DNA of 64,000 nucleotides from Clostridiales bacterium (lineage in GTDB: Bacteria; Bacillota; Clostridia; Christensenellales; Borkfalkiaceae). Positions within the stretch are counted from its first letter, which is position 1; each line of letters starts with the position of its first letter. The translations under genes and the position numbers were made by a program. This document shows, in pieces, positions 5,467-22,492 of this stretch. Below the pieces are notes generated by a model that ran no database searches, was not told the origin of the DNA, and saw nothing but the letters and a program-made list of their open reading frames with translations. Location: positions 1-64,000 of the forward strand of contig SVHO01000002.1 in assembly GCA_015055725.1 (NCBI GenBank), read 5' to 3'.

Positions 5467-7560
5467 TTACCCCACTAACGCATATAATGGCTTACCGTTA
5501 TATTGCAAACTTGGCGTAATCAAGCTGATTTCTCTTATTCTTTGCTTATACGCTGAAAGTGTGTCGTCATTAAACGGTCTTTCATTTTCTTTTCCGTATA
5601 GATCATATATTTTGTATAAATGCGCTATATTTTCAAGTTCTATTCTTTGATGAACAACTTTGTATAGCGTCGGGTCGGATTCTTTAAGATATGCAATCTT
5701 TTCAATCGCTTTATCACACATTTCAACCCAGCCTTTAAGAACTAAATACGGATAATTTTCTTTACTTTTAATATCGCGACCCCAGTTATTATCTGTTTCT
5801 GCATTAACCACAAGGTTTGCATAATGAATTCTTTCTTGCATTAAAAGTTCATACATAATATCTGATGCTTCTAAATACATGGCTTTCATATATTTTTGAA
5901 TGTAATAATTCATATCCCTCGTCACGTCCCATCTGATTTTTGATTGAACGTAACTTAAACAATTATGCCAAGCGGTCATTTCGCCACCACCTTGCAAATA
6001 ATGCGCGGAGTAAACAAGTTCATAATTACCGTAAGCCATCGCTTCAAAGAAGTTATTGCTATAAGTGGTAAAACCGTCTGAGAAATAAATGTTATTTACA
6101 ATATTGCCCGAATTATGCCAGAACCATAAACAGTTTGATTTTTGAGTAATTGCCTTCCAACCTTGTATTTGTTTAATTTGGTCAGGCCATTTTTCATCAT
6201 AAGTATCAGCGTGTGCACTTACACCCCTTGAACTTACGTGCCAGATACCGATATTTTCACGGCAAACAACTTCTTCGCTTAACGGCGTGCCGTTTTCGTC
6301 AACGGGTGGGTCGGTGTATACATTATAGCCGTAAGTTAAAATCTTAAAGTTTTCCCTATATGCATAGTGAAATTCAGCATCTTCATCTTTTTGGCTTTCT
6401 AACCACTCTTCAACTTTTTCGCCCAACTTATTTGCAAACTTAATTAGGTTCCCAGAATATTTTACTTGTGCGTAATCAGCCTTACAATTCGGACAAGAGC
6501 AAATGTCACCGTTATCAGTCATCGTGAAAGTGACGTAATTGCGGTAAGGATACTCCTCTGGCGTATAGTTTTTCAATGAGAATATAATTTTCTCAGCACA
6601 AATTTCAATCATTTTCTCAAGTACCTCAGGATTGCCGTGTGCTGTATAGCAAAGTTGAGATGCACTTGCAAACATATCATCTACTACGCCTTCAACTTGT
6701 GTGTTGATATAATACATAACGTTGTGTATAGGTCCAGATGGACTTGATATGTCGAACGTTCTGTGTATAGGCAAGAACATATAATTGGGATGAATAAATT
6801 GACTTGCGCGTAAATTTTTTGCCTTTATTTCATCAGCAACAGTATCATAACCTAAACCTTCAGCATCTAAATTATGAATGCTCTTATCATATTCATAAAC
6901 TTGTTGCGAACCGTAAAATGAGTTTACGTCAGGAATATCGGTGACATCTAAATTTTTAAATTTGCATTCAGTCACGTTCGTGTCAATTTCAATACAGTTC
7001 CTGTAATAATAATCAAAATTGAAATAAATTTCAAGGAATTTATAAACTGCATTGCAAACGCCAAAATCATCACCACCTAAAATAAAAACCGATTGGTTTT
7101 TGGTGATTATACGAATACCTTCTTTTTTGATATTCGCAACTGAAAATTCGTCTTTGCTTATTCCTGCTTTTGAAACAAGTGAGGTGTTGCCAATTGAAAT
7201 ATATTTAGAGTTTTCAGTAAAGTCAGTGATATTGTTATCAAATTGAAAACCAAGAGATATTCCCGTTGCTTTCTTGAAAAGAATAATAAAATCAGTTTTA
7301 ACTTGTGAAACCATATCACTTGCATCTTCTGAAATAACAACGGTGTAGTCAGTTCTGCCATCTCTAACTAAATAATTATCGGTATCAGAGACATTTATAT
7401 CGTGCGTACCAGCATAGCTTACTCTATCAATTGAACCAAAATCACTCGGCTCACCATCTCCAGGATAATAACCTTTATCACTATCGCTACACCCAACAAC
7501 ACCTAAAAGAAATGTGAACATCAATACAAATAAAATAAACTTAAAAAATTTGTTTTTCAT
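5467..7560 (-). CDS. DUF4838-type lipoprotein (putative glycoside hydrolase-like)
   Basis: Lipobox LLGVVGC; ISIGNTSL...GVCNAVYKFLEIYFNFDYYYRN and FTMTDNGDICSCPNCKADY motifs typical of DUF4838 proteins. Confidence 0.7.
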   Translation of the reverse strand: MKNKFFKFILFVLMFTFLLGVVGCSDSDKGYYPGDGEPSDFGSIDRVSYAGTHDINVSDTDNYLVRDGRTDYTVVISEDASDMVSQVKTDFIILFKKATGISLGFQFDNNITDFTENSKYISIGNTSLVSKAGISKDEFSVANIKKEGIRIITKNQSVFILGGDDFGVCNAVYKFLEIYFNFDYYYRNCIEIDTNVTECKFKNLDVTDIPDVNSFYGSQQVYEYDKSIHNLDAEGLGYDTVADEIKAKNLRASQFIHPNYMFLPIHRTFDISSPSGPIHNVMYYINTQVEGVVDDMFASASQLCYTAHGNPEVLEKMIEICAEKIIFSLKNYTPEEYPYRNYVTFTMTDNGDICSCPNCKADYAQVKYSGNLIKFANKLGEKVEEWLESQKDEDAEFHYAYRENFKILTYGYNVYTDPPVDENGTPLSEEVVCRENIGIWHVSSRGVSAHADTYDEKWPDQIKQIQGWKAITQKSNCLWFWHNSGNIVNNIYFSDGFTTYSNNFFEAMAYGNYELVYSAHYLQGGGEMTAWHNCLSYVQSKIRWDVTRDMNYYIQKYMKAMYLEASDIMYELLMQERIHYANLVVNAETDNNWGRDIKSKENYPYLVLKGWVEMCDKAIEKIAYLKESDPTLYKVVHQRIELENIAHLYKIYDLYGKENERPFNDDTLSAYKQRIREISLITPSLQYNGKPLYALVG

Positions 7561-7564
7561 AGTA

Positions 7565-10500
7565 TTACTCCTCTACCGTCACATTTACTAGTTTATAAGC
7601 AAAATTACCAGCTTCATCTTTTGCATAGATATAAACTTGATAACTGCCAACACGGTTAAAACGTATAGCATTCGTATTATAAGTATAGAAAGCATTTACC
7701 TTAATATCCCTTAAGAATATAGTAACGGCAATGTCTTTACCAGCAGTAATATCGTCGCTTACGCTATATTTAAGCGTGAAAGTGCTACCTTTTTTTATGT
7801 TAACGTTTTGATCAACATTGAGTTTAATAGTGGGTGCAACAGAGTCAACTACGCTAAGTATACAAGTAATATCACCATCGTTGTCCGAACCATCAAAGGC
7901 AGTAATCACAACCATATATTTACCATAGCTGTCAAGTTTAACTTGGTAAGAGCGCATAGCGTTAGCGTTATCTAGTTTTACGCCGTCAACACTGCTTAAC
8001 ACTTTGCCATCTTTAGTCACTTTAATAGTGACGTTTTGATTAATAATAGTAGAATAAACGTCCGTCACACACGGTGGCAAAATAGTTATAACCGAGCCAC
8101 GTTCGTATTCACCCGAAAAGTCCTTGATTGAGATTAATGGTGCTTGAGTATCGTTATATTTATTATTTCTTATGGTTTGACCGTTAATCTTATCAATGAT
8201 AATAGACGCATCGCCATAAGCGTTAACTACTTTAACGTCAATATAACAAAGTGACGAAGTAAACATTGAAGAAAGGTCTACACTAAATTCCAAATCATTA
8301 ATCGTGAATATTTTAGTTAAAACGTCATATTCTATTTCTTTCACGTTGCTATTGCTTGCAAACGGGAAATCAGACGCAAGTGTTCTTTCTCCGTTTAATG
8401 AAACGTAGCAAACACCGCCTTTATCAATGAACGAAATGGTATAAGAAACGTTTTCATCATAGTAATCGGTTAGAATAACGTCTGCCCTTTCGTAATAAGC
8501 GCGGTCTACAGGAATTTTAAGTCCAAACTCTAAAGAAGAAAAGTCAATGGCGTTAACGAACTTCAAAGTGCCGTTAGTGTTTGGAGCAATTAAATCGTAT
8601 TGAACGGCAGTTTTTTTGCTTTCAGAATAACTTTTTGCTTCAAACTCATCATGAATAAAGTAATCTCGAACAGCTAATCTTCCACCATAGCCAACGTCTA
8701 CGATAGTTATAGGTTCACTTATAATTTGGTCACTGCTATTACCTTTTTGACAAGTGTATTTAATAATTGCAGTATTTGACCCCGTGATTTCAACGCATCT
8801 ATAATCTTCAATTGGTAAGAAGGTTTGACCGTTATCATAACTAATAAACGCCGAAAAATCCACTGGTGATGGCGTTGCTTTATCATAAGCAAAACAAGGA
8901 ACGGCCTCTAACGAGTACTCTGCGTTTTTGATAAAATAACGTGGCAAATTAAATTTACCAACAAAACTTACGTTATTAGAAGTTTGGCTTTGAATAGCAT
9001 ATTTATAAATAACAGAATCATAAACGTTATCAGAGCAATCATAAACGATAGTATATTCGCCTGCATATTTTGGAATAAACGTTCTCTTTTCAGGGTCAAT
9101 ATTTATCGTTTCGTTATTATGAACGGCTTTAATAGCTACTTTAAGCGCACTTTGTTTATTAATGGTTTCAAGGCTAAATTCAGGCAAGATCACACGCGCG
9201 CCCGCTTCAACTGTGTTTAACCCCGCATAAGACGTGTTAAGGGTTATCGGCTTTTCAGTTTGAACAGGGTTGATAGTGAGCGTATAATACCCAACGCACC
9301 CCGCCGAATTCTTAACCACGTATACTGCGGTGTATTGTCTATCTTTATCAATTTTAATTTTTCCATCAACAACGGCAACGTCTAATTGAGCAGGCGTTCC
9401 GTAATTAGCGTAAACGTTAACGGTTGAAGAAACAATCGCTTCGTTGCTAACGACGTTTGGTGTAGGCAAAACGTAATCACTTCCAAGTGGAACGTAAATT
9501 CCCCTTTCGTCAGTATCAATCACGTCAAGATTGATAACGGGCAAAGCAACGTCATCAATAAAACCTAGTTTACCAAAGTTTTCAACTAACTCTTTACCGT
9601 CATAACCACCAATGCTGTTAATATCAATTCTACCCTTATCACCAGACACATAATCAGACATAAATACGCTGAGTTTAACCTTTCCCGAACTAAAACCAGG
9701 GAAAGTGTTAGTGCCATAAACTTCACTGCTTGAAAGTGCACCTACTAAAACTGATTGTGTGCCGTGTTGAATATAAACTTTATTAGAGTTAAAATCATAT
9801 TTCCAAGTGAAAGCCGAGTGGTCGTTAACCAACGGGAAACCTGAAAAAGTACGACCACCTTTTTCGTTGTTGTAGTAAAGTCCGTATTTTTCACCGTCAA
9901 TGGTGACGTTATAATACGTTGCGTATTCTTTAGAAACAGGGGCGGTTATAGCCGTGCGTTTTTGCCCTACTGCACAAACCGTAAAGCTTGGATAATAATT
10001 ACTCTTTTGGCTATTACCAACTGACGAACTATTAATATCCACAGAATTGTTATCAGGACAAGCAAGCCTACAATATAGTTCCACGTAATTCCCCAAATCA
10101 TAACTATCAGAAAGCCTAATAATGCAATAAGTTGCAATATTTGACTGTACCTTTAATTTTTTCCAAGAATTTGTTTGGTCATTTGGGTTATACAATTCGT
10201 TGGGAACAAAGTTTACGTTTCTATAATCGAGCGTGATTAAATCACAAAGCCCGTCTTCGCCAACTTGAGATAAATCGATACTCTTTGTAAAGTTAAAGGT
10301 ATCGCCTTCAGCCAATCTAACGATAAGCGCGTCTTCTTTATGGAAAGTCACGTCAACGTCGTTTCCAAGATACTCTGCATTTTCTTGTTGTTCTTTTGAA
10401 ACCGCAACTACACTGCCGTTTGTGGTAGAAACGCTATAAAGTTTATTGGTGACCACGAATGTTTTTTCAGCAATACATTTATCGCCGTTATCGTCATCAA

Positions 10501-10822
10501 AGTAATATCTAACGGCATAATCACCAAGTTGATCTAATCTTAACCAAGTTGCATAAACTGCTTTCCCGTTTGGATAAAAGACTATACCATTTGATGCTGT
10601 GTAAGTTTTCCCTTTATATTCAACTTGAATTTCCGACGGAAAATCCACTTCAGAATTCAAGTTATACTCATCGGAAAACACGCCTTGGCTAATAGTCACT
10701 TTATCAGCCAAAACGTAATTTAAACCGTTATTTTGCGTAAAAAAGAAACTCATAAAACAAGCTATTGCCAAAACGGAAAGCAAAATTATGATATTCAGTT
10801 TTATGTTTTTAATGTTTTTCAT
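7565..10822 (-). CDS. Large exported protein with C-terminal Ig-like domains
   Basis: N-terminal signal/TM; Ig-like repeats ending VGSYQVYIYAKDEAGNFAYKLVNVTVEE. Confidence 0.7.
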   Translation of the reverse strand: MKNIKNIKLNIIILLSVLAIACFMSFFFTQNNGLNYVLADKVTISQGVFSDEYNLNSEVDFPSEIQVEYKGKTYTASNGIVFYPNGKAVYATWLRLDQLGDYAVRYYFDDDNGDKCIAEKTFVVTNKLYSVSTTNGSVVAVSKEQQENAEYLGNDVDVTFHKEDALIVRLAEGDTFNFTKSIDLSQVGEDGLCDLITLDYRNVNFVPNELYNPNDQTNSWKKLKVQSNIATYCIIRLSDSYDLGNYVELYCRLACPDNNSVDINSSSVGNSQKSNYYPSFTVCAVGQKRTAITAPVSKEYATYYNVTIDGEKYGLYYNNEKGGRTFSGFPLVNDHSAFTWKYDFNSNKVYIQHGTQSVLVGALSSSEVYGTNTFPGFSSGKVKLSVFMSDYVSGDKGRIDINSIGGYDGKELVENFGKLGFIDDVALPVINLDVIDTDERGIYVPLGSDYVLPTPNVVSNEAIVSSTVNVYANYGTPAQLDVAVVDGKIKIDKDRQYTAVYVVKNSAGCVGYYTLTINPVQTEKPITLNTSYAGLNTVEAGARVILPEFSLETINKQSALKVAIKAVHNNETINIDPEKRTFIPKYAGEYTIVYDCSDNVYDSVIYKYAIQSQTSNNVSFVGKFNLPRYFIKNAEYSLEAVPCFAYDKATPSPVDFSAFISYDNGQTFLPIEDYRCVEITGSNTAIIKYTCQKGNSSDQIISEPITIVDVGYGGRLAVRDYFIHDEFEAKSYSESKKTAVQYDLIAPNTNGTLKFVNAIDFSSLEFGLKIPVDRAYYERADVILTDYYDENVSYTISFIDKGGVCYVSLNGERTLASDFPFASNSNVKEIEYDVLTKIFTINDLEFSVDLSSMFTSSLCYIDVKVVNAYGDASIIIDKINGQTIRNNKYNDTQAPLISIKDFSGEYERGSVITILPPCVTDVYSTIINQNVTIKVTKDGKVLSSVDGVKLDNANAMRSYQVKLDSYGKYMVVITAFDGSDNDGDITCILSVVDSVAPTIKLNVDQNVNIKKGSTFTLKYSVSDDITAGKDIAVTIFLRDIKVNAFYTYNTNAIRFNRVGSYQVYIYAKDEAGNFAYKLVNVTVEE

Positions 10823-10851: not shown

Positions 10852-11790
10852 TTATTCTTTAACACCGCCAACCGATATGTTGCCCATAAGTTTATTCTTA
10901 AAGATTACGAACACGATTACCATCGGCATAGCAAGTGCCATTGCTGCCGCAAAGTTGAACGGCACGTTTGCTCCACTGTTATGCTGACCACCAAAAATCA
11001 AAACTGCATATGCAAGGGTTGGATGTGTTGGAATATACAACAACGACGTGTTGTAATCGTTATACATTGCAACAAATTGAAGTAAAAATATAGTTGAAAA
11101 CGTTTTGATTGCAAGTGGTATATATATAGTAAACATAACCCTAAAATAAGATGCACCGTCAAGTTGCGCGGCTTCTGCATAAGTGTCTGAAACACCACTA
11201 AAGAATGCGTAGAATATTAAGAAATAAGTATTTTCAAAGGTAAGATTTTTTATCCACATACCCCAAATAGTGTCATATATACAAAAACGGCGCATAAGTG
11301 TTATGACTGCTGTGGTATTGCCAATCATTGGCATAACCATTTTAAGCAACACGAAGCCATATATAATTCCGCTAAATTTATATTTAAACTTTGAACACAT
11401 ATACCCCATTATGCAAGGTGCAAGCGCACCAAAAAAAGCAGAGCCACCAGCATATAAAAGAGTGTTTAACGTAAAGCCGAAAAAGTCCACGTGAGACTTG
11501 TTTACTGTTGGAATATCAAGATTCCAACCTTGATGGAAGGTCTTTTCAAAATCCTTTTCAAGTGCTGAAAAAAGGCTTGTATAATTAGTGAATATATTTC
11601 CGCCTTTCTTTTCCCAAATTTCCATATTGGGAAGTCCTAACAAGTTATCCATAAAGTCTGTTCTATATTTAAGTGACGTTAGAACGCCCCACAATAAAGA
11701 GCCGATAACACTAATTGCATAAATTGCAAGAATTAAACCAACAACTATTGCATATATGTTAATTTTAAACTTTTTTTCTCTATTTTTCAT
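10852..11790 (-). CDS. Carbohydrate ABC transporter permease (MalG-like, CUT1)
   Basis: EAAQLDGASYFRVMFTIYIPLAIKTFSTI EAA loop. Confidence 0.85.
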   Translation of the reverse strand: MKNREKKFKINIYAIVVGLILAIYAISVIGSLLWGVLTSLKYRTDFMDNLLGLPNMEIWEKKGGNIFTNYTSLFSALEKDFEKTFHQGWNLDIPTVNKSHVDFFGFTLNTLLYAGGSAFFGALAPCIMGYMCSKFKYKFSGIIYGFVLLKMVMPMIGNTTAVITLMRRFCIYDTIWGMWIKNLTFENTYFLIFYAFFSGVSDTYAEAAQLDGASYFRVMFTIYIPLAIKTFSTIFLLQFVAMYNDYNTSLLYIPTHPTLAYAVLIFGGQHNSGANVPFNFAAAMALAMPMVIVFVIFKNKLMGNISVGGVKE

Positions 11791-11801
11791 AACGTCACCC
11801 C

Positions 11802-12788
11802 TTAATTAACGCTTGGCCCGAATTTTTCAAGTAAACGCCTTACCGTAAGCGTGACGGGCAACACAACTAAAGTAATCATAACACCTATTGCTGAAATTTG
11901 AGGATAAAGTAAATAACCGTTTGAGCCACCATATTCAGCTAGACCTTGTGATTTTGCAGTTTGCAAGTAGATATAATACCCTACTGACCAAATATCTTGC
12001 GGTGCATCTATTTGAAAGAAAGTATACAAGTTCATCTGGTTGCTAAAAACAGCAGCAAGGTCAATAACAACAAAGGTGACAATAGTTGGATAAATTGACG
12101 GCAAAGTGATGTAAATAAATTCTTGCACTGTATTACAACCATCTAAATGGCAAGATTCAACTATTGATTCGTTAATACCGCTCATTGCACCACTTGCAAG
12201 TAAAATGTTTGCACCAAAACCCATCCATAAATTATAGAAAATAAGAGTGGGCAAAATTATTGAGGTTTCGTTCATTTTATCAAGAAGGCCCTTTGCCCCC
12301 GACAAGAAGGTGTACACGTCGTTAACCAAGTATCTAAAAGTCATGGTCATAACAACGGTAGAAATAATTTGCGGAAAGAAAAGAATTATCCTAAAAAATT
12401 CCGAAAGCGGAAATTTTTTATAAACGTAAAACGAAAATATAATTGAAACCGGCGTTGCAACAAACGCAATGATTGCATACATAAGAAAGCTTACGCTAAA
12501 CATATGCACGTTTTTTTGTGAAAATAAAATTGTAAGAACCTCTTCAAAATTCTCAAACCAAGAAAATTTCCCAACAGAACCTACACCAGGAACGTAAGTA
12601 TATTTGGAAAAAGCAAGCATAACGTTGCTAAAATTAACGTAGATGTAAAATATTGCAGCTTGCGCCAAAAAAGGCGATATCATCAAAATATAGAATATAA
12701 TTCTTTTGGTTTTTTCATTAAGAACTTTTTTAGGCTTAACTTCACCACTTGGCGCGGTATTCAAGTCCGAAACATTTAATGAATCCAT
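11802..12788 (-). CDS. Sugar ABC transporter permease (MalF-like, CUT1)
   Basis: ESCHLDGCNTVQEFIYITLPSIYPTIVTF EAA loop; multiple TM segments. Confidence 0.85.
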   Translation of the reverse strand: MDSLNVSDLNTAPSGEVKPKKVLNEKTKRIIFYILMISPFLAQAAIFYIYVNFSNVMLAFSKYTYVPGVGSVGKFSWFENFEEVLTILFSQKNVHMFSVSFLMYAIIAFVATPVSIIFSFYVYKKFPLSEFFRIILFFPQIISTVVMTMTFRYLVNDVYTFLSGAKGLLDKMNETSIILPTLIFYNLWMGFGANILLASGAMSGINESIVESCHLDGCNTVQEFIYITLPSIYPTIVTFVVIDLAAVFSNQMNLYTFFQIDAPQDIWSVGYYIYLQTAKSQGLAEYGGSNGYLLYPQISAIGVMITLVVLPVTLTVRRLLEKFGPSVN

Positions 12789-12841: not shown

Positions 12842-14767
12842 TTAATTTGGTGAATAATCTTTCCCTTCGTATTTTATAGGTTGACCTTCTTTTTGGTGAC
12901 CTGCAGGATAATATTGCGCCTCAGGCATTTGTCCACCGTCTGCACCAAAGAAGCCAGACCAATCGTTAATATCTTGCGTCACTGCTTCAAAGCATTTTAC
13001 TATGTCAAAATTATGATATTTCAAGAATGCTCTAATATTTCTTGACCTATCTGTAAACAAATAACTAGTTGAACCACCGTGTTTACCAAGTTCAGTATAG
13101 TGTGCTTTATATACGCTACTTGAGCCGTAAGGATATACTTTGTTTGCGCTATTTAATAATTTTGCAAAAGATTTAGTATACACAGGCGCATTTTCCGTAT
13201 GTTCGTCTTTAATTTCATAATTTAACATATATCCATAGTTTGCCTTAGTGGTAAACAAAGAAAGTTCTTCATCTGAATAAATGAAGTGGAACCAATCTTT
13301 AAGTACGCTCATAACTTCAGTATCGTTAGCATACATTGAGTTAACACAAACGAATCCGCCGTCAGGAATATAAAGAGTTATGGGTTCACCCTTTTTACTT
13401 TCAATTGTTTCAATTTCCGTAGTGACAGATTGATTTGTTCCATCAACTGACGTGAAGATGTTTACAGGTAAACTCATCCAAGGTGTTTCACGCTCAGCAA
13501 AAGGAATTTTATCACCGTAGAAAATTTCGTAATCTTCATAGTTCTCTCTTATACGACTTTCGTTTGCCCAATATGAATTTTCAATTAACATACCAACTCT
13601 ATCTTTATTGCGATGCACACTGCTTAAGAAATGATATTGCGTTGCAGCAGCACCAGTGACTTCTTTATACCATTCGTTTTGTTCAGCAAGTTGCATAAAT
13701 GCAAACGCATAGTATTTTTCAACGGTATGAGATAAATAATAACCAAATTCTTCGTCAATTTTGACTCTTGCAGTAATAGGCTTTTTAACCCCTTCAAGAC
13801 CATTTTCACCAGGGAACAAATCTTCATCAGAATAACCAACAACAACGTCAACACCAGTGCTATAAAAATCTTTCAATGCTTTACCGTTTTCATAACCAAG
13901 CAAAGATACGTATAACGCTTCAACGAAATAGTTTATATAAAATGCTGGGTCGTTAGTTATAGCCAAGGGGTATATACTGTTGTCAGCCAAGTTTTCACAA
14001 AGGGCAATAAGTTCGTATAATGATGATGGCAAACCATCGTCTTCAGTATTTGGCAAGCCGTCAGGACCAACTGACCTTGAACCTAAATCTTTAGTAAACT
14101 TAAAGTCATAGCCTTCACCTAAAACCGCACTGCTAAACAACGTAGTGATGATTTCGTCGTCATCTTCATCGCTAACTTGAGCGTCGGGTTTAGCAAAGAA
14201 ATACCCTTCTTTTTCAAAAAGGTCTTTATCATATGAAAGTCCGCCGTATGCTTCATATGATGGCAAACCATAATATCCCGATGGAATAGCCGAATCTTTA
14301 GAATCGTCAAGACGGAACCTATATCTTATAGCTTCAGGGATTTTGTCTTCAATGCTTTTACCATCTGCTTCAATATTACTAGTCATAATATCGTCAATGT
14401 TTGCAATCCAGCCTTTTGATGCTGAAACGTCTGTAGGATTGTATCCGTCCCCTGTATATATAACGTGATAACCATCGTTTACAATACCCTGTCCTATTCC
14501 AACGTCTGTGCCAGGCATTTCAATTTTAACTTTTACGCCTTCTTTGCCTTCGGCATAACTATCGGTTTCGTGCAAAGCATTAAACCTTTTTGCTTGGTCC
14601 TCCAATAAATCTTTACCATACGCATTGTCACTAACTACAATGCGAATTACCGTTTTGTCACCCTCGTCACCAGACGGTGCAGAGCAGGCAACAACACCAA
14701 AAGACATAAATAAGCACAAAGCAAGTGATATAAACGTCTTAAACCATTTGAATGTTCTGTTTTTCAT
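12842..14767 (-). CDS. Extracellular solute-binding lipoprotein (family 1-like)
   Basis: Lipobox SFGVVACS; adjacent to two permeases; SBP-like fold motifs. Confidence 0.85.
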   Translation of the reverse strand: MKNRTFKWFKTFISLALCLFMSFGVVACSAPSGDEGDKTVIRIVVSDNAYGKDLLEDQAKRFNALHETDSYAEGKEGVKVKIEMPGTDVGIGQGIVNDGYHVIYTGDGYNPTDVSASKGWIANIDDIMTSNIEADGKSIEDKIPEAIRYRFRLDDSKDSAIPSGYYGLPSYEAYGGLSYDKDLFEKEGYFFAKPDAQVSDEDDDEIITTLFSSAVLGEGYDFKFTKDLGSRSVGPDGLPNTEDDGLPSSLYELIALCENLADNSIYPLAITNDPAFYINYFVEALYVSLLGYENGKALKDFYSTGVDVVVGYSDEDLFPGENGLEGVKKPITARVKIDEEFGYYLSHTVEKYYAFAFMQLAEQNEWYKEVTGAAATQYHFLSSVHRNKDRVGMLIENSYWANESRIRENYEDYEIFYGDKIPFAERETPWMSLPVNIFTSVDGTNQSVTTEIETIESKKGEPITLYIPDGGFVCVNSMYANDTEVMSVLKDWFHFIYSDEELSLFTTKANYGYMLNYEIKDEHTENAPVYTKSFAKLLNSANKVYPYGSSSVYKAHYTELGKHGGSTSYLFTDRSRNIRAFLKYHNFDIVKCFEAVTQDINDWSGFFGADGGQMPEAQYYPAGHQKEGQPIKYEGKDYSPN

Positions 14768-14818: not shown

Positions 14819-17503
14819 TTATTTTATCCAGCCAAAGTCGTTTGGTGACAACAGGCATTTACCAAGCGTATAACAAGGTTCGTTGTCAACACACCACCTT
14901 GCCCCGTCATAGGTTGTTATTAAAAACTTATAAGGCAATTTAATGAAAGAACTTTCGTCTTTTTTGATACGAGCAATAACGTGCAAATTATTTTCACCTG
15001 ACAAGTTTTCAACTTTCCACTTTAAAAGTTCTTCTTCTCTATTTTCATCAAGTAAGGATTGATGCCCCGCTTCTATAAACGGAACTATCTTTCCGTCAGC
15101 CCTAATAACTAAGGTCGGCTCAGGAAAGAAAAGGCGGAATTCGTTGTCAATGCAGAAATTTTGTTTTTTATTGCTTTTAATTTCAATTTCTATATATTCG
15201 CCAACGGCTATCCTAAACTTACTTTCATTATCGTCAAGATAACCCCACTCGGCACTATCTAAGCCATTTAAGCCTGCCTTAATCGATTGATGCTCGTCTC
15301 CACCGTAATATGAAAGTGGGATAAGCCCTTTTTCTATGCGCTCTTTCACCTTAGGAAATTCAGTCTCTAAAAGGCCTTTTAATTTTTCAACCCTAGATTT
15401 TAGTTTTTCTGGGAAAAATTTATATCCTTCTGCTTCAGAATGATAACCAAGCCTATTATCGCTTTCGCAAAGAGGTATCATTTTTACGCTGTTTTTTATC
15501 TCTTCTTTAACCAAAACTATCATTTGGTTAAGAATTTCATTTAGATTACCTGTTTGATAACCCAATTTATCACGCAGTTGATAAAATCTTAAAACGTTTC
15601 TTCCGCTTTCAAACAACACGCCAAGTGCTTTTGCGACCGAAAGTTGTTCGTTTTTAGGATTATTCCATTCAGTTGTCTTAGCAAGAATTTCTAACCCCTT
15701 TTGCCAATTTTCACAAAGAATATTTGAAAGTTCAATTGCTTCGTCTATCGTATGCCCCTTAAACAAACACTCGCCTATCCTGTCACCGTTAGGAACGTCT
15801 TGCAACTGCCACGACCTTGAAAGCGGTTTATTCTTTGGTAATAACGATAATTCCCACACAACCCCGTCATGCATCGGGCCGTAGTAGTTAAACATAACGT
15901 TCACGGGATAATTCGAATATGCTTTTTCAAAATAATCCCAAGCAAGCGCAACCTTTTGGGCGTCTTGCTCACTCCAATAAAGTGACGCAAGTTTAAGCAA
16001 AAAATCTTCTTTGGTCAAAAAGTCGTTTTTTGCGCAAAGCAGTCCAACAGCCTTGCTCATTAAACACGGGTAGTTGCCAAAAAGCCAACTCTCCATCACG
16101 CCCGAAACCCCTTGTCTTTTTGCGCTTATAATCTTATCATATATAATTCCAGGAACTGGTATATATGGAACGGTTGCCAATTCATGTGAACAGCAAACCT
16201 GCATTTTTGCATAAATCTTTTTTTCTTGTTGAACGGCCTTTCTAGCGGTGAATTTAAACATTTCAGAAGGGCCCGTATAAGATAAGTAATAATCTAATGC
16301 AAACCGCTTTTTGCCAAGTTGAACCACCCTGCCGTCGTCTTCATAGTTTTGTAGCATAACAACGTTATCAGGGCATTTATCTACGTATTCACCAATAACG
16401 TCTAATGGTTGTCCCCTATGTCCGTAAGTCCAACTTATAAATTCAACTTGACTATTTGCGCTGTCAATAGCGTTTTTAATAATCTTCGCCGTGTGCGTGA
16501 CTATTTCCATTTGCGATTTGTCCGCACAGTGTGGGCAATCGTTGTGCCACGCCCCTTCTAAATCGGGCCACGTGTTCCCACACGACGTGACGCGTTCACC
16601 AAAAGTTATATCAATTATTCCGCCAAGATTTTTTGCGCTTTTAACCACGTTTTGTATGGCTTCGGTTAAATAACCTTTCCCAAACTCCGTGTACGTGCAA
16701 AAACCTTTTGGACCACGGTTATCGTTTCCAGCAACTTGCGGATATTTCTTTTCAATTCCAGGGTATCTATTTTTTATCGTCGGCTCGTCTAACGACATTG
16801 GCGCGATAATAAGTAAATAAACTTTAATCCCGTATAAAGCACACTTGTCAATTATGCGGTTAAGTTTGTTTATTCTTTTTTCAGAATCTTGACCGAATTC
16901 TTTAATATAAGAAGATTTAGCAAGTTGGTCTAAATCCGCATAAACCCAAACGGCGTTAGCCCCGTCACGCATAAGTCTATCTAAATAAGCGTCTGGATAA
17001 TAATCAACGTCATCATCAAGTTCGGCTAAATTTTTAGGTGGACGATTTATAGGCGCAAAAAAGCACCTTGCAAGCCTTACTTCTAAATCAAACTCTTTAT
17101 AAGCCTTTTCAATTTTCAGAAACCCACCGTTAATTAAAATCTGGTCTTGTATATAAACGAGTGCACGCCTTATTCCGCTAACACCACACGCACTTATTGA
17201 GCATCTCTCTTCGTCAATGCAATAAGTAAAACTTTCAGTATCTTCCCCAACTGTCTTAACAAGCAAAATTGGATAAGACTTGCCGTTTAAATCGTTTTCT
17301 TCTAAAAAGGCGTTAAAATTATCAAATGATTTTTCAAGCAATTTTTCATCCGAAAAGTCAGCAGTTTGAAGAAAAGCACCGCTTAAACGTATAAACCCTT
17401 TCTTTTCGATTGAGGCATGAAGCAATTTCGGAACGTAAAAATTCTCTAAATCTTTTTGAAAGTTTTTTTGTGGTTGTTTGTTAAAGAATTCGTCAATTTT
17501 CAA
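14819..17503 (-). CDS. Putative glycoside hydrolase (hexosaminidase-like TIM barrel)
   Basis: No signal peptide; RLMRDGANAVWVYADLDQL and ITFGERVTSCGNTWPDLEGAWHNDCPHC; TTG start preceded by GAAGGTG. Confidence 0.6.
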   Translation of the reverse strand: MKIDEFFNKQPQKNFQKDLENFYVPKLLHASIEKKGFIRLSGAFLQTADFSDEKLLEKSFDNFNAFLEENDLNGKSYPILLVKTVGEDTESFTYCIDEERCSISACGVSGIRRALVYIQDQILINGGFLKIEKAYKEFDLEVRLARCFFAPINRPPKNLAELDDDVDYYPDAYLDRLMRDGANAVWVYADLDQLAKSSYIKEFGQDSEKRINKLNRIIDKCALYGIKVYLLIIAPMSLDEPTIKNRYPGIEKKYPQVAGNDNRGPKGFCTYTEFGKGYLTEAIQNVVKSAKNLGGIIDITFGERVTSCGNTWPDLEGAWHNDCPHCADKSQMEIVTHTAKIIKNAIDSANSQVEFISWTYGHRGQPLDVIGEYVDKCPDNVVMLQNYEDDGRVVQLGKKRFALDYYLSYTGPSEMFKFTARKAVQQEKKIYAKMQVCCSHELATVPYIPVPGIIYDKIISAKRQGVSGVMESWLFGNYPCLMSKAVGLLCAKNDFLTKEDFLLKLASLYWSEQDAQKVALAWDYFEKAYSNYPVNVMFNYYGPMHDGVVWELSLLPKNKPLSRSWQLQDVPNGDRIGECLFKGHTIDEAIELSNILCENWQKGLEILAKTTEWNNPKNEQLSVAKALGVLFESGRNVLRFYQLRDKLGYQTGNLNEILNQMIVLVKEEIKNSVKMIPLCESDNRLGYHSEAEGYKFFPEKLKSRVEKLKGLLETEFPKVKERIEKGLIPLSYYGGDEHQSIKAGLNGLDSAEWGYLDDNESKFRIAVGEYIEIEIKSNKKQNFCIDNEFRLFFPEPTLVIRADGKIVPFIEAGHQSLLDENREEELLKWKVENLSGENNLHVIARIKKDESSFIKLPYKFLITTYDGARWCVDNEPCYTLGKCLLSPNDFGWIK

Positions 17504-17712
17504 AAGTACGACACCTTCGCTTTTTTCAACTTTTAATAAACATTGAAAAATTTATTTATAGTTTCGTTATGTTAAACAATTTAAGTTTTTATTTTCTTTT
17601 TAAGTAAAAAACAACAAATTGTTAAAAGTTAACCGCGCATAGCGAACTTTTACATAATATATGTATTTAAATGTTTACATACTACGCACCTATAATAATA
17701 AGTGTCATAAAA

Positions 17713-17741
17713 ATTATAGCAAAAAGCGTGTTTGTTGTACA
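17713..17741 (-). promoter_or_regulatory. Promoter of glycan operon: -35 TGTACA, N17, -10 TATAAT
   Basis: Minus strand TGTACA (17736-17741), 17-nt spacer, TATAAT (17713-17718). Confidence 0.65.
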
Positions 17742-17777
17742 TATGCTCACTTACTTAAAATATGTGTTTATTTACTT
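17741..17777. promoter_or_regulatory. Tandem half-sites ATATGCTCACTTACTT / ATGTGTTTATTTACTT, 21-bp spacing (AraC operator candidate)
   Basis: 12/16 identity at exactly 21 bp; same arrangement at 20090 and 21405. Confidence 0.7.
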
Positions 17778-17805
17778 TTTTAGCAATTATTTTTTAACTT
17801 AAGTC

Positions 17806-17834
17806 TTGACAGAAAGAACTCTATTCGTTATAAT
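17806..17834 (+). promoter_or_regulatory. Sigma70-type promoter of AraC gene: TTGACA-N17-TATAAT
   Basis: Consensus hexamers at 17806-17811 and 17829-17834. Confidence 0.85.
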
Positions 17835-17863
17835 TGTTTTAAAAATATTTTAGGAGTGGAAAA

Positions 17864-18712
17864 ATGGCTTCAATGTATTCAAAGTATAATTTCGGTATGT
17901 TTAACCCCACCAACACCTTAAAATGCATACACATTATGGATATCGGGTATCACGATCACAGCGTAGTTAAAGCATATACTGACAAGCCAAGAAAATCTTT
18001 TTATTCAAGCTTTCACATTATTTTAGATGGAGAAGGCACTTTGGATTTCGGAAACAAAGTCTATCCTTTATCTAAGGGTTCGGTTTTCTACTTACCGCCT
18101 TACGAACCTTTCCTTTATTTGCCATCTGCTAACAATCCGTATAAATTCGTTTGGATTGGCTTTGACGGAGATGAAATAAACGCTCTTTTACAAAAGAAAG
18201 GCATTAACCAAAACAACCCTATTCTAAATATTAAAAACACTAAGAAAATGTTGACGTTGGTTGATGATTTTATCGAACACAACAGCCAAAAAAACGTCAC
18301 CGAAGAAAAAATGCTCTCTTTTTTCTTTTCTTTTATACATTGCGTTCAATCACCAAAAAACACCACCAAAACCGCACATGCTTCAAACAACGTTGAGGCG
18401 ATAAAACGCTTGATAAGTCAAAACTATATGCATCACAACTTCACAATTCAATCAATTGCAAGCATTATGCACGTTAGCCACTCATGGCTTTGTGCAACTT
18501 TTAAGCGTGAAACTGGAACTTCTATGCACGAATATCTTATTAGCGTTAGACTTGGGCATTCAGCCGAACTTCTAACAAAGAGCAACCTTTCTATTAACGA
18601 AATTTCTTATACTTGTGGTTTTAACGATGCCCTTTATTTTTCTGCAGCATTTAAAAAGTCCTACAACGTTTCACCTCAAAATTACCGCAAAGCTTATAAG
18701 AGAGACAATTAA
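17864..18712 (+). CDS. AraC family transcriptional regulator (cupin plus HTH)
   Basis: C-terminal FTIQSIASIMHVSHSWLCATFKRETGTSMHEYLISVRL...SINEISYTCGFNDALYFSAAFKKSYNVSPQNYRK. Confidence 0.93.
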   Translation: MASMYSKYNFGMFNPTNTLKCIHIMDIGYHDHSVVKAYTDKPRKSFYSSFHIILDGEGTLDFGNKVYPLSKGSVFYLPPYEPFLYLPSANNPYKFVWIGFDGDEINALLQKKGINQNNPILNIKNTKKMLTLVDDFIEHNSQKNVTEEKMLSFFFSFIHCVQSPKNTTKTAHASNNVEAIKRLISQNYMHHNFTIQSIASIMHVSHSWLCATFKRETGTSMHEYLISVRLGHSAELLTKSNLSINEISYTCGFNDALYFSAAFKKSYNVSPQNYRKAYKRDN

Positions 18713-18720
18713 TTAAACAA

Positions 18721-20019
18721 TTATTTCAACAACATTGCCGGGCGCTCGTCCGGCTTTTGTGCTTTAAAAGAAACGTTTTCAAGTTTAAGATTTTCCGTGT
18801 TTTCAGAATAAAGCCCAAAACACGGCAAAACGAACTTACTGCTCTCAGGGTAATCTCCAGGAGTTGGAAAACAACTTTCAGTTGTCTTTTGACCCCCAAG
18901 CACCGAAACGTTAACGTTATATAAGTTTACGTTCTTAATTTTATTTTTAGCATTGGTGCTCATAATAATACTTGTATACGAGCAATTTGTTCCGTAATCA
19001 CTGCCTTCTTTTATATCGGGATACCAACTGTCTATACTCTTAAACCTTTGGTCGTTAACGTCTGCAAATAAATTGCTTATGTTAATATCCGAAATAGAGC
19101 CCATTTTTGTACCTTCTGGTGCTCTTAATCTTTCACTCAAATAAATAAATAACGGATTAGCAACGTTGCACATGGTAATGTTGCTTATATTTATTCCGAA
19201 AATATTTGCCCCGTCTGCGCTTTCGATTGCAATACCTGAATGTTGGGTGTTAAAAATAACGCAGTTCGAAACGTTGATATATTTAAAGTCACCAATAGAT
19301 TCAGAGCCAAATTTAATCGAATTTGCTCTACTACTTATAACACAGTTATTAACGGTAATTCTTTGACAATCTCTTTTGCAGTTGTCAAAATATGACGCTT
19401 TGAAAACGAGTGCGTCGTCACCAGTCTTAATTATACAGTCTGAAATAACAACGTCTTCACAGCAGTCAGGGCTAATGCCGTCAATATGTGAATTTATAAA
19501 CAGTTTACTTATAATAACGTCTTTACATCCGCCCATAAGAACGGAAATGTCCGTTGCATTTAAGATTTTAACGTCATAAAGCCTAAGCCCCTCAACCTTG
19601 CGTAAAGAAAAAACTTTCGCACCACGATGGTATCCGTCGCCTAACTTACTACGCTTATCTTCAGGGTCCCAAATAGATAGCATATCTATCGTTGCTTGAC
19701 CCTTTATGCTAACGTTTTTAACGTTATCAGCATAAAACATAGCACAAGTATATTTACTATGTGACAAATCTTGATAAAGCTTATAAGAAACTTCTTCGTC
19801 TGCATTAAAATCTGATAATTTTGGAGCAGAGTTAATTTTAACTCCGTCTTCAAAAACTATGTTTGTGTTATCTTTTAAAACTACCGTAGAAAGAGTATAC
19901 GTGCCGAAAGGAACGTATACGGTTTCCCCACCACGCATTGAACCCAAGTCAATCGCTCGTTGAAATGCTTTTGTATCTAATTCAGTCGTCTTGTCAATGA
20001 AATCTTTTAAGTTAATCAC
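18721..20019 (-). CDS. Glycoside hydrolase family 28-like / right-handed beta-helix protein
   Basis: INLKDF..TTELDTKAFQRAID...TVYVPFGTYTLSTVVLKDNTNIVFEDG; HIDGISPDCCEDVVISDCIIKTGDDALVFK. Confidence 0.85.
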   Translation of the reverse strand: MINLKDFIDKTTELDTKAFQRAIDLGSMRGGETVYVPFGTYTLSTVVLKDNTNIVFEDGVKINSAPKLSDFNADEEVSYKLYQDLSHSKYTCAMFYADNVKNVSIKGQATIDMLSIWDPEDKRSKLGDGYHRGAKVFSLRKVEGLRLYDVKILNATDISVLMGGCKDVIISKLFINSHIDGISPDCCEDVVISDCIIKTGDDALVFKASYFDNCKRDCQRITVNNCVISSRANSIKFGSESIGDFKYINVSNCVIFNTQHSGIAIESADGANIFGINISNITMCNVANPLFIYLSERLRAPEGTKMGSISDINISNLFADVNDQRFKSIDSWYPDIKEGSDYGTNCSYTSIIMSTNAKNKIKNVNLYNVNVSVLGGQKTTESCFPTPGDYPESSKFVLPCFGLYSENTENLKLENVSFKAQKPDERPAMLLK

Positions 20020-20061
20020 TTTTATGCCCTTCTTGTTTCAATTTATATCTATACACAATAA

Positions 20062-20090
20062 ATTTTACAACATAATATATTAATAGTAAA
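20062..20090 (-). promoter_or_regulatory. Promoter of GH28-like gene: TTTACT-N17-TAAAAT
   Basis: -35 at 20085-20090, -10 at 20062-20067, spacer 17. Confidence 0.55.
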
Positions 20091-20126
20091 TGTGTTCATT
20101 TATTTTGTTTATGTGTTTATTTACTG
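20090..20126. promoter_or_regulatory. Tandem half-sites ATGTGTTCATTTATTT / ATGTGTTTATTTACTG, 21-bp spacing
   Basis: 13/16 identity, 21-bp register, abuts -35. Confidence 0.75.
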
Positions 20127-20141
20127 TTTAAAATTTAAAAT

Positions 20142-20184
20142 AAAAAAACACCCTAATTTTATTCAAATATAAGGTGTTTTTTTT
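20142..20184 (-). terminator. Intrinsic terminator downstream of PHP-domain gene
   Basis: aaaaaaacacc ... ggtgtttttttt hairpin with A/T tracts. Confidence 0.65.
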
Positions 20185-20320
20185 AGTAAATTATTATTAA
20201 ATCGTTATATAATACGCGATTTTTAGTCATCTAAAAGTTTATCGCGAATAAAAAAGATAACTGTTAATATGTGAAAAATTATGGCGTTATTTAAATTTAT
20301 TTGTTTTATAAACGTATAGA

Positions 20321-21337
20321 TTATTTAATTAAATCTTCCATAAAATAAGCGTTTGTGTTTGCCCTTTTTCCAAACTTATCAACAAGAGTTAGTCTAAAAT
20401 ATCCAGCGTAATGTGGAATGTCAAAACACGCTTCAGTTAACCCGTTTTCGTCTTCAGAAAACTCAACGCGTGCTTCGCGCGCCCTACACGTCATATATAT
20501 TTTATCAACGGCAGAACATTTAATATATACCTTTCCATCTTCATAATAAAGGTCGTAAATTTCAGGTCCTTCAGAAGCGTAAAACCAACCGTTTTTAAGC
20601 GCAGTTGCAACGCTTTTATAGTCTAAACTTTCAGCCTTAATCATAGTAAAAGCCACCCCAGAATCCCAACGGCGAGTGTTTGGGCGTCTATTGTGATTAT
20701 CGTCACCACCTATACAAAAAAGTTTTTGACCACCGGTAAGCATATCGTCATACTCTTTTGAGTTATAATCCTCATATCCCCCCAAAAGACCGCCACCATT
20801 AATTATTTCAATCGCATCAAGATTATGATAATTCATGTAATCCAAATAATTTTCTCTTGACCAGTTAGGATGATTATAAGTGACGAAAAAACCCTTTTCT
20901 TTGCACTCTTTAGCAACTTTGCTCACGTATTCACCACTATATTCACGTATATGGTCAGGTTCGTTTTCATCAAATTTAACCAAATGTTTATTCTTTGGCG
21001 CATTACCAAAAAAATATAATTCCCTATGCCAAAAAGGTTGAATTTCAATTTTTTCGTCGAGCGCAACGATACAAAGGTGACAAATTTTATATCCCCCTTT
21101 TGACCTATCTTCAATTATAGACATTTCAAAACCGTTTAGCGCAAGAAAATCTTTATCGGTTAAATCATTATGCGTGATAAATAAATCGTGATCGGTATAA
21201 GCCACTATAGAATAGCCTAATTTTTTGTAAATTTCCTTAACTTCCTCAGGCGTTTTCGCTCCGTCTGATAATACCGTGTGGCAATGCATATTAGCTTTGT
21301 AAAAATTGTTTTTTTCAGGCAATAAATATTTTTTCAT
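20321..21337 (-). CDS. PHP domain-containing phosphoesterase-like protein
   Basis: ANMHCHTVLSDGAKTPEEV...IVAYTDHD and VTYNHPNWSRE metal-binding motifs. Confidence 0.85.
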   Translation of the reverse strand: MKKYLLPEKNNFYKANMHCHTVLSDGAKTPEEVKEIYKKLGYSIVAYTDHDLFITHNDLTDKDFLALNGFEMSIIEDRSKGGYKICHLCIVALDEKIEIQPFWHRELYFFGNAPKNKHLVKFDENEPDHIREYSGEYVSKVAKECKEKGFFVTYNHPNWSRENYLDYMNYHNLDAIEIINGGGLLGGYEDYNSKEYDDMLTGGQKLFCIGGDDNHNRRPNTRRWDSGVAFTMIKAESLDYKSVATALKNGWFYASEGPEIYDLYYEDGKVYIKCSAVDKIYMTCRAREARVEFSEDENGLTEACFDIPHYAGYFRLTLVDKFGKRANTNAYFMEDLIK

Positions 21338-21376
21338 TTTACATTTAGCCCCTTTAAATTCATTTGTTATTATTTA

Positions 21377-21405
21377 ATTATAACTTAATTATCACAGTTT
21401 GTAAA
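21377..21405 (-). promoter_or_regulatory. Promoter of PHP gene: TTTACA-N17-TATAAT
   Basis: -35 21400-21405, -10 21377-21382. Confidence 0.75.
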
Positions 21406-21441
21406 TGCGATTTATTATTTGCTATATGTGATTATTTATTT
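21405..21441. promoter_or_regulatory. Tandem half-sites ATGCGATTTATTATTT / ATGTGATTATTTATTT, 21-bp spacing
   Basis: 13/16 identity, same register as the other two sites. Confidence 0.65.
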
Positions 21442-21460
21442 TATTTTTAGACACGTAAAA

Positions 21461-21482
21461 AAGCCACCTTAGAAGGTGGCTT
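21461..21482 (-). terminator. Terminator of nagA-nagB-like operon
   Basis: aagccacctt-ag-aaggtggctt hairpin followed by T-tract on minus strand. Confidence 0.8.
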
Positions 21483-21502
21483 TTAGCGCGGTTTATTAAG
21501 GA

Positions 21503-22492
21503 TTAATAACCAACCTTTTCCCAGCAATCAAATGGAGCTGCAAGTTCATCAGAAACAAGAACTTGGGTCTTCATAAGTTGAAGCATAGAAGAAGGAATTA
21601 ACGGAGTGACAGGTCCATGAAGAACAAGACGTGAAGTCATTCTTTGCCATGAAGAGAACGTGCCGTTGGTTAAAAGTGCGTGAACTTCAATTCTTTCTCT
21701 TGCATTTTTAACGTCGATAGGTCCAATGGTTGCAGCCTTAGGTGGAACGTCAGCAATATAACCAGATTGACCGAACACACCGTGCAATGAGTTTTGAGCA
21801 ACGGTAAGTGGGTGCAAATCAACGATTCTAGCCTTCATATTGAGCCATTCGTCAATTTGAGCCTTAGTGGGTTCTTTAGAACCGTCAAAACCTTCAGGGA
21901 AGAAGTCTGCAACAGGGTCGATAAACGCCATATGACCAGTCCAACCAGGTGAAGAAGAGCAGATGTCTGCACCGCCTTCGCCACAATCAGTAATCATATC
22001 AGAATAACTGTTGATGTTTTTGTTGGTAGGATAGTGAACGTTTTCTAAAGGCATACGAAGTTTTTCATCAATTTGATAAACTAAGTATTTAAGCATTGAG
22101 TGTGCAAAACCAGCCTTGTAAGTTTCGGGTGCGATATTGCCATCTTGGTCAGCCCATTCGTCCATAGCAAAAAGGTGCACGTTTTTGCAGTCTACTTTAA
22201 AGTAGTTGATGAGTTGTGCAAGTGGAATATAAGTATCGGGTTCGGGGTTTCCGAGAATAAGGGTAATTTTCTTACCTTTTTCCGATGCTTCTTTAATCCT
22301 TGCAAAAAGGGTTGCGATAAGAACGGGGTGTGGGTTCATCATAACTTTGATGTTGAAATCAGGATTTGAGTGTTTTTCCAAATCCGTTCCACTGATTTTG
22401 CGAAGTTTTTCACAAAGTTCCCTGTCCTTGAAAGGTACGAAGTTCGCAGGTCTAAAAGCGAAATCCGTTGCCGGTTCAAATATTTTGTTCAT
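21503..22492 (-). CDS. Glucosamine-6-phosphate deaminase/isomerase-like protein (divergent)
   Basis: ITLILGNPEPDTYIPLAQL, FAMDEWADQDG, GWTGHMAFIDP. Confidence 0.75.
   Translation of the reverse strand: MNKIFEPATDFAFRPANFVPFKDRELCEKLRKISGTDLEKHSNPDFNIKVMMNPHPVLIATLFARIKEASEKGKKITLILGNPEPDTYIPLAQLINYFKVDCKNVHLFAMDEWADQDGNIAPETYKAGFAHSMLKYLVYQIDEKLRMPLENVHYPTNKNINSYSDMITDCGEGGADICSSSPGWTGHMAFIDPVADFFPEGFDGSKEPTKAQIDEWLNMKARIVDLHPLTVAQNSLHGVFGQSGYIADVPPKAATIGPIDVKNARERIEVHALLTNGTFSSWQRMTSRLVLHGPVTPLIPSSMLQLMKTQVLVSDELAAPFDCWEKVGY

Follow-up and report, generated by a model that had tools for sequence, protein, structure and literature searches.

The window, as the term is used here, is the whole 64,000-nucleotide stretch analysed, positions 1 to 64,000 of contig SVHO01000002.1 of a Clostridiales bacterium (family Borkfalkiaceae). 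Between 17,713 and 21,441 it carries three pairs of direct repeats, each ahead of a minus-strand promoter, around the gene of an AraC-family regulator of 282 amino acids (aa). The repeats are about 16 base pairs (bp) long and recur with a period of 21 bp, which corresponds to two helical turns. A preliminary description had noted these pairs and their promoters. When the sequence was read base for base, all three pairs were found where they had been placed, each with the 21-bp period, and the -35 and -10 boxes were confirmed on the minus strand with 17-bp spacers (3/3). The one-base overlap of operator and -35 hexamer was also real, but the shared base had been called the last of the hexamer, which is the plus-strand view. 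Read in the direction of the promoter, the proximal half-site ends, at all three sites, on the base with which the -35 hexamer begins. A search pattern for the whole pair (the dimer pattern) was derived from the three sites with the promoter left out, allowing up to 3 mismatches, and its reversed form served as control.

Operators and promoters in the window:
17741..17777, minus strand: operator 1, direct repeat of 21-bp period ahead of the operon for an 894-aa hydrolase and an ATP-binding cassette (ABC) importer; 0 mismatches to the dimer pattern
17713..17741, minus strand: promoter 1, TGTACA-N17-TATAAT; -35 has one base in common with the proximal half-site
20090..20126, minus strand: operator 2, direct repeat of 21-bp period ahead of a gene like those of glycoside hydrolase family 28 (GH28); 0 mismatches
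20062..20090, minus strand: promoter 2, TTTACT-N17-TAAAAT; one-base overlap with operator 2
21405..21441, minus strand: operator 3, direct repeat of 21-bp period ahead of a PHP gene; 2 mismatches
21377..21405, minus strand: promoter 3, TTTACA-N17-TATAAT; one-base overlap with operator 3

In promoter sense, operator 1 reads AAGTAAATAAACACAT-ATTTT-AAGTAAGTGAGCATAT, operator 2 CAGTAAATAAACACAT-AAACA-AAATAAATGAACACAT and operator 3 AAATAAATAATCACAT-ATAGC-AAATAATAAATCGCAT. The two halves are identical at 12/16, 13/16 and 13/16 positions, respectively, and promoters 1, 2 and 3 matched the consensus at 10/12, 9/12 and 11/12 positions in a consensus promoter scan. Terminator-like hairpins were read from the sequence next to two of the operators.

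20142..20184, minus strand: terminator-like hairpin behind the PHP gene, immediately upstream of operator 2
21459..21484, minus strand: terminator-like hairpin behind a nagB-like gene, immediately upstream of operator 3

A hairpin with a T-run lies in the same way directly upstream of the fourth site of this genome, on contig C53 (see below). Thus, each of these three targets appears to own a terminator-operator-promoter unit. The interval 17504-17706 (minus strand), from promoter 1 to the 894-aa gene, would be an untranslated leader of about 200 nucleotides if the TTG start is right; it belongs to no Rfam family, and a search of 17000-22000 for known RNA elements found none.

Rarity of the spaced pair and its recurrence outside the window

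The dimer pattern had 4 matches in the whole 1.48-Mb genome and its reversed control had 0, while dinucleotide shuffles of the window gave a chance expectation of 0. Across 44 genomes of the genus one further match was found, in the sister species G034; of the 43 other members, 42 had no match. Among 396 genomes of the order, the only match besides those of this genome was in G366, and it was rejected because no promoter stood in the corresponding position (-35 box 2/6). The dimer in the window is not a product of chance. The preliminary description had named random genome-wide frequency as a finding that would refute its reading; the frequency is non-random. Its proposed search of the genome proved specific when the 21-bp-spaced pair was used, but not with the single half-site, which had 79 matches against 60 for the control. 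The half-site combined with the -35 box was at background level as well. The signal therefore resides in the spaced pair.

The fourth site of the genome, C53:25592-25627, came from the dimer search and stands ahead of a gene for an MGH1-like glycoside hydrolase; its promoter, TTGACA-N16-TATTAT (11/12), lies at the exact offset seen in the window. The fifth, G034:C102:594-629, has TTTACA-N17-TATAAT (11/12), again at that offset. Promoter scores of at least 11/12 occur at a frequency of 0.0004 of noncoding positions. Since the search pattern lacked the promoter, and yet a promoter was present at the identical offset, these two sites are independent tests of the architecture. The 21-bp period and the one-base overlap with -35 hold at 5/5 sites, with promoter matches of 9-11 of 12. 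A combined pattern of dimer and -35, drawn up after all five sites had been seen, gave exactly five matches in the 44 genus genomes and 0 for the reversed control.

The presumed regulator and its probable target genes

The araC gene sits between operators 1 and 2 and has a promoter of its own.

17864..18712, plus strand: AraC-family regulator, 282 aa, with AraC_binding cupin and double helix-turn-helix (HTH); presumed operator binder by position only
17806..17834, plus strand: araC gene promoter, TTGACA-N17-TATAAT, 12/12; no operator overlaps it

The N-terminal cupin (Pfam AraC_binding, 2.4e-13, residues 49-122) is the sugar-binding and dimerisation domain of the carbon-source subgroup. The C-terminal double HTH (HTH_18, 1.1e-20, residues 198-276; HTH_AraC in two stretches) places the protein in the AraC/XylS family, which is marked by a two-motif domain of ~100 residues at this end. 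A separate 12/12 promoter, free of operator overlap, suggests that araC is expressed steadily. Against the NCBIfam equivalogs the best score was 83.8 bits (AraC; cut-off 208), with RhaS, MelR, AryK and others far below; by these models the regulator is no named equivalog. Orthologs, sought for phylogenetic footprinting, were not found: the best identities were 31% in the genus and 28-30% in the 396 order genomes.

The operators precede the operon of the 894-aa predicted hydrolase and the transporter, a GH28-like gene and a PHP gene, as in the preliminary description.

14819..17503, minus strand: 894-aa protein encoded by the operon's first gene; fold predicted to be GH138/GH20/GH67-like, without a Pfam or NCBIfam family
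12842..14767, minus strand: probable carbohydrate ABC substrate-binding protein (SBP), 641 aa; weak TIGR03850 match, 2e-8, under the cut-off
11802..12788, minus strand: ABC permease, 328 aa; BPD_transp_1 2.1e-11
10852..11790, minus strand: ABC permease, 312 aa; BPD_transp_1 9.5e-6, GlcU-like 1.8e-11
7565..10822, minus strand: secreted protein, 1085 aa; likely in the same operon as the 894-aa gene, judged from spacing
5467..7560, minus strand: DUF4838 protein, 697 aa (DUF4838 1.8e-11); likely also in that operon, whose extent is predicted
18721..20019, minus strand: GH28-like hydrolase, 432 aa, target of operator 2; Glyco_hydro_28 7.9e-15
20321..21337, minus strand: CehA/McbA-family PHP metallohydrolase, 338 aa, target of operator 3; NF038032 83.4 bits, cut-off 80

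The GH28-like protein is nearest to the model of the rhamnogalacturonidase BT4146 (8e-77, under that model's cut-off). The predicted structure of the 894-aa protein (mean predicted local distance difference test score, pLDDT, 78; predicted template modelling score, pTM, 0.81) is closest to GH138, which acts on rhamnogalacturonan II, and then to GH20, GH67 and GH84, with template modelling (TM) scores of ~0.5 that give a fold class and not a function. Judged from the predicted families, all four sites of this genome precede glycan-related genes, that is, one operator stands ahead of functionally linked units, as in a regulon. The best guess for the substrate is a pectic, plant-glycan type.

The 894-aa protein has relatives (L162-L224) in Clostridia, Bacteroidota, Lentisphaerota and other metagenome-assembled genomes, with no Pfam or NCBIfam model, and may represent an uncharacterised glycoside hydrolase family; E303, E388 and D389 are invariant in it and are candidate active-site residues. 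A second copy, 38% identical, immediately follows an AraC-type gene in each of the two species (G000:C34, L091:1822-5411; G034:C26, L093:5669-9180), and the copy in G034 adjoins an SBP/permease set 40-53% identical to that of the window. The 641-aa probable SBP has no Pfam match and only the weak NCBIfam match, as does its 616-aa counterpart in G034.

The G034 site stands ahead of the gene for a secreted protein of 1050 aa that falls into no family, followed by an AraC gene with its own 22-bp repeat and an ABC-importer cluster. This AraC, on contig C102, was considered as binder of the G034 site and thought unlikely: it is absent from the HTH matches at E 1e-4, and the gene adjoining it has a 22-bp repeat of its own (L086:6640).

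Probable binder and mode of action

The repeats are very probably operators of a local AraC-family activator of class II type, most likely the 282-aa protein, serving a plant-glycan regulon. The preliminary reading of AraC-type operators in a small regulon is supported by the non-random frequency, by the G034 site with its full architecture, and by the fourth and fifth sites with their promoters. Some observations weigh against it. The genome holds 17 AraC-type HTH matches, 16 besides the protein at 17864, so that position is the sole link of this protein to the operators. No ortholog of it was found in G034, which has one site and whose assembly is 58% complete. The C53 promoter has a spacer of 16 bp, not 17 bp, and the sites are AT-rich and number five in all.

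The operators could be real and AraC-type and yet be bound by another regulator, such as the AraC paralog encoded on contig C45 or a response regulator of AraC type, with the 17864 protein controlling something else. The abundance of HTH matches would fit such a binder, as would the site in G034 without a clear ortholog, and the C45 protein, encoded at a contig end, is the closest paralog in the HTH (44.6% identical). We consider this unlikely, as the 17864 gene has three of the four sites no more than 3.6 kb away, including two that flank it directly, and no dimer site was found near the C45 paralog. It is more improbable still that the same protein acts as a repressor, its dimer at -35 blocking RNA polymerase (RNAP) until a sugar frees it. 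The proximal half-site does overlap the -35 hexamer, and promoters 1, 3, C53 and G034, at 10-11 of 12, could work without an activator; but an overlap of one base leaves -35 mostly free, the sites lie upstream of the promoter and not across it, promoter 2 scores only 9/12, and the AraC-family sites published with such a layout serve activators (PMC4514859, PMC5481539, PMC8579813). Coincidence, or AT-rich upstream DNA of the UP-element kind with no specific binder, is hardly credible. Although the base composition and the common single half-sites would suit it, as would the background level of the half-site with -35, the spaced pair is missing from nearly all of the 396 order genomes, dimer and -35 occur together exactly five times in the genus, and the conserved CACAT/CATAT blocks of the sites are not A-tracts.

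Activation by the 282-aa protein might then proceed as follows. Two neighbouring subunits would occupy the same face of the DNA, two helical turns apart, the distal half-site being held firmly and the proximal one at -35 more weakly. Binding of a sugar to the N-terminal cupin, probably a pectin oligosaccharide of rhamnogalacturonan type, would let the proximal subunit settle and recruit RNAP. Four units would be switched on: the 894-aa hydrolase/ABC-importer operon, the GH28-like gene, the CehA/McbA-type PHP hydrolase and the MGH1-like glycoside hydrolase. An unnamed regulator of an uncultured herbivore-gut genus of Clostridia thus gains a predicted operator, a target gene set and a likely substrate class. 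The proposed mechanism is as expected for AraC regulation, and the sequence evidence is unusually clean.

Geometry at related loci and in known systems

The spacing was also scanned at 81 loci around relatives of the 894-aa protein, covering 628 promoter-like noncoding positions. Direct repeats that touch -35 were most frequent at 21 bp: this spacing occurred at 9 positions, which belong to 8 distinct promoters including the 3 of the window, and other spacings at 0-2. In 40 shuffles the 21-bp count averaged 0.42 and never exceeded 2. Unrelated half-sites with the 21-bp period were found in G036 (TGGTCAAAGATTCATA/TGGTCAAACTCTCATA, L088:12184) ahead of an SBP operon, at L183:7851 and L169:15018 with an AraC gene nearby, and at L096:6377 immediately ahead of its 894-aa homolog; the promoter-abutting repeat at L086:6640 has a 22-bp period and likewise an unrelated half-site sequence. 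These five are candidate operators of other AraC regulators. Such a pile-up at 21 bp with differing sequences indicates a geometry shared by AraC-type activators in general, with specificity for the regulator residing in the sequence only. As the loci were picked for the hydrolase, this supports the geometry at loci of that kind and not across the clade. We propose tentatively, and with less than even confidence, that the AraC activators of related glycan loci in this clade follow a rigid grammar (repeats of 21, sometimes 22 bp at -35) while their half-sites drift by regulator; regulons could hence be read from raw sequence with no cue but their geometry, and the same type of operator could stand before different operons in sister species. 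The scan suggests that such regulons are predictable without orthologs.

In AraC control, araI1 and araI2 have a 21-bp period and overlap -35 by 4 bp. The window sites are likewise direct repeats, with a less conserved copy beside the promoter that may, as at araI, be the weaker one, and the regulator resembles AraC in its cupin and double HTH; unlike in AraC, no looping half-site was seen, the -35 overlap is one base, and the score falls far short of the AraC equivalog cut-off (83.8 vs 208 bits). The araI1 half-site is TAGC-N7-TCCATA and araI2 TAGC-N7-ACCTGA (PMC4514859). For the other operators, periods were counted from the motifs printed in the papers (XylS and MekR 21, MtlR 22). XylS binds Pm at TGCA-N6-GGNTA-N6-TGCA-N6-GGNTA, two 15-bp direct repeats with a 21-bp period (PMC5481539, PMC4514859). 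The sites described here share this period and the overlap of activator and RNAP sites at the promoter; they differ in half-site sequence and phylum, and the effector of XylS is benzoate. MtlR at PmtlE and MekR at PmekA are dimeric AraC/XylS activators on direct repeats of 22 and 21 bp reaching -35 (PMC4514859), unlike ours in sequence, effector and host. The AraC-type geometry claimed in the preliminary description thus agrees with published AraC/XylS-family operators (PMC4514859, PMC5481539).

Mean agreement was 13.4/16 in the distal half-sites, 11.1/16 in the proximal ones and 2.2/5 in the spacers. A strong distal and a weak proximal half-site are known for MelR, RhaS and MtlR; in MtlR the upstream half-site is the stronger one, and a proximal site that had been made strong led to constitutive promoter activity (PMC4514859). 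The better-conserved distal half is as expected from these activators, as a statement on conservation and not on affinity. In Caldicellulosiruptor, AraC-family regulators (PecR, PecR2, HemR and others) have predicted tandem-repeat sites upstream of pectin and glycan gene promoters and are proposed activators (PMC8579813). Likened by description, not by motif or orthology, the present system is of the same kind: a local Firmicutes AraC regulator with tandem repeats upstream of glycan promoters. Set beside these systems, the predicted regulon is new, and its presumed mechanism and its geometry are already known.

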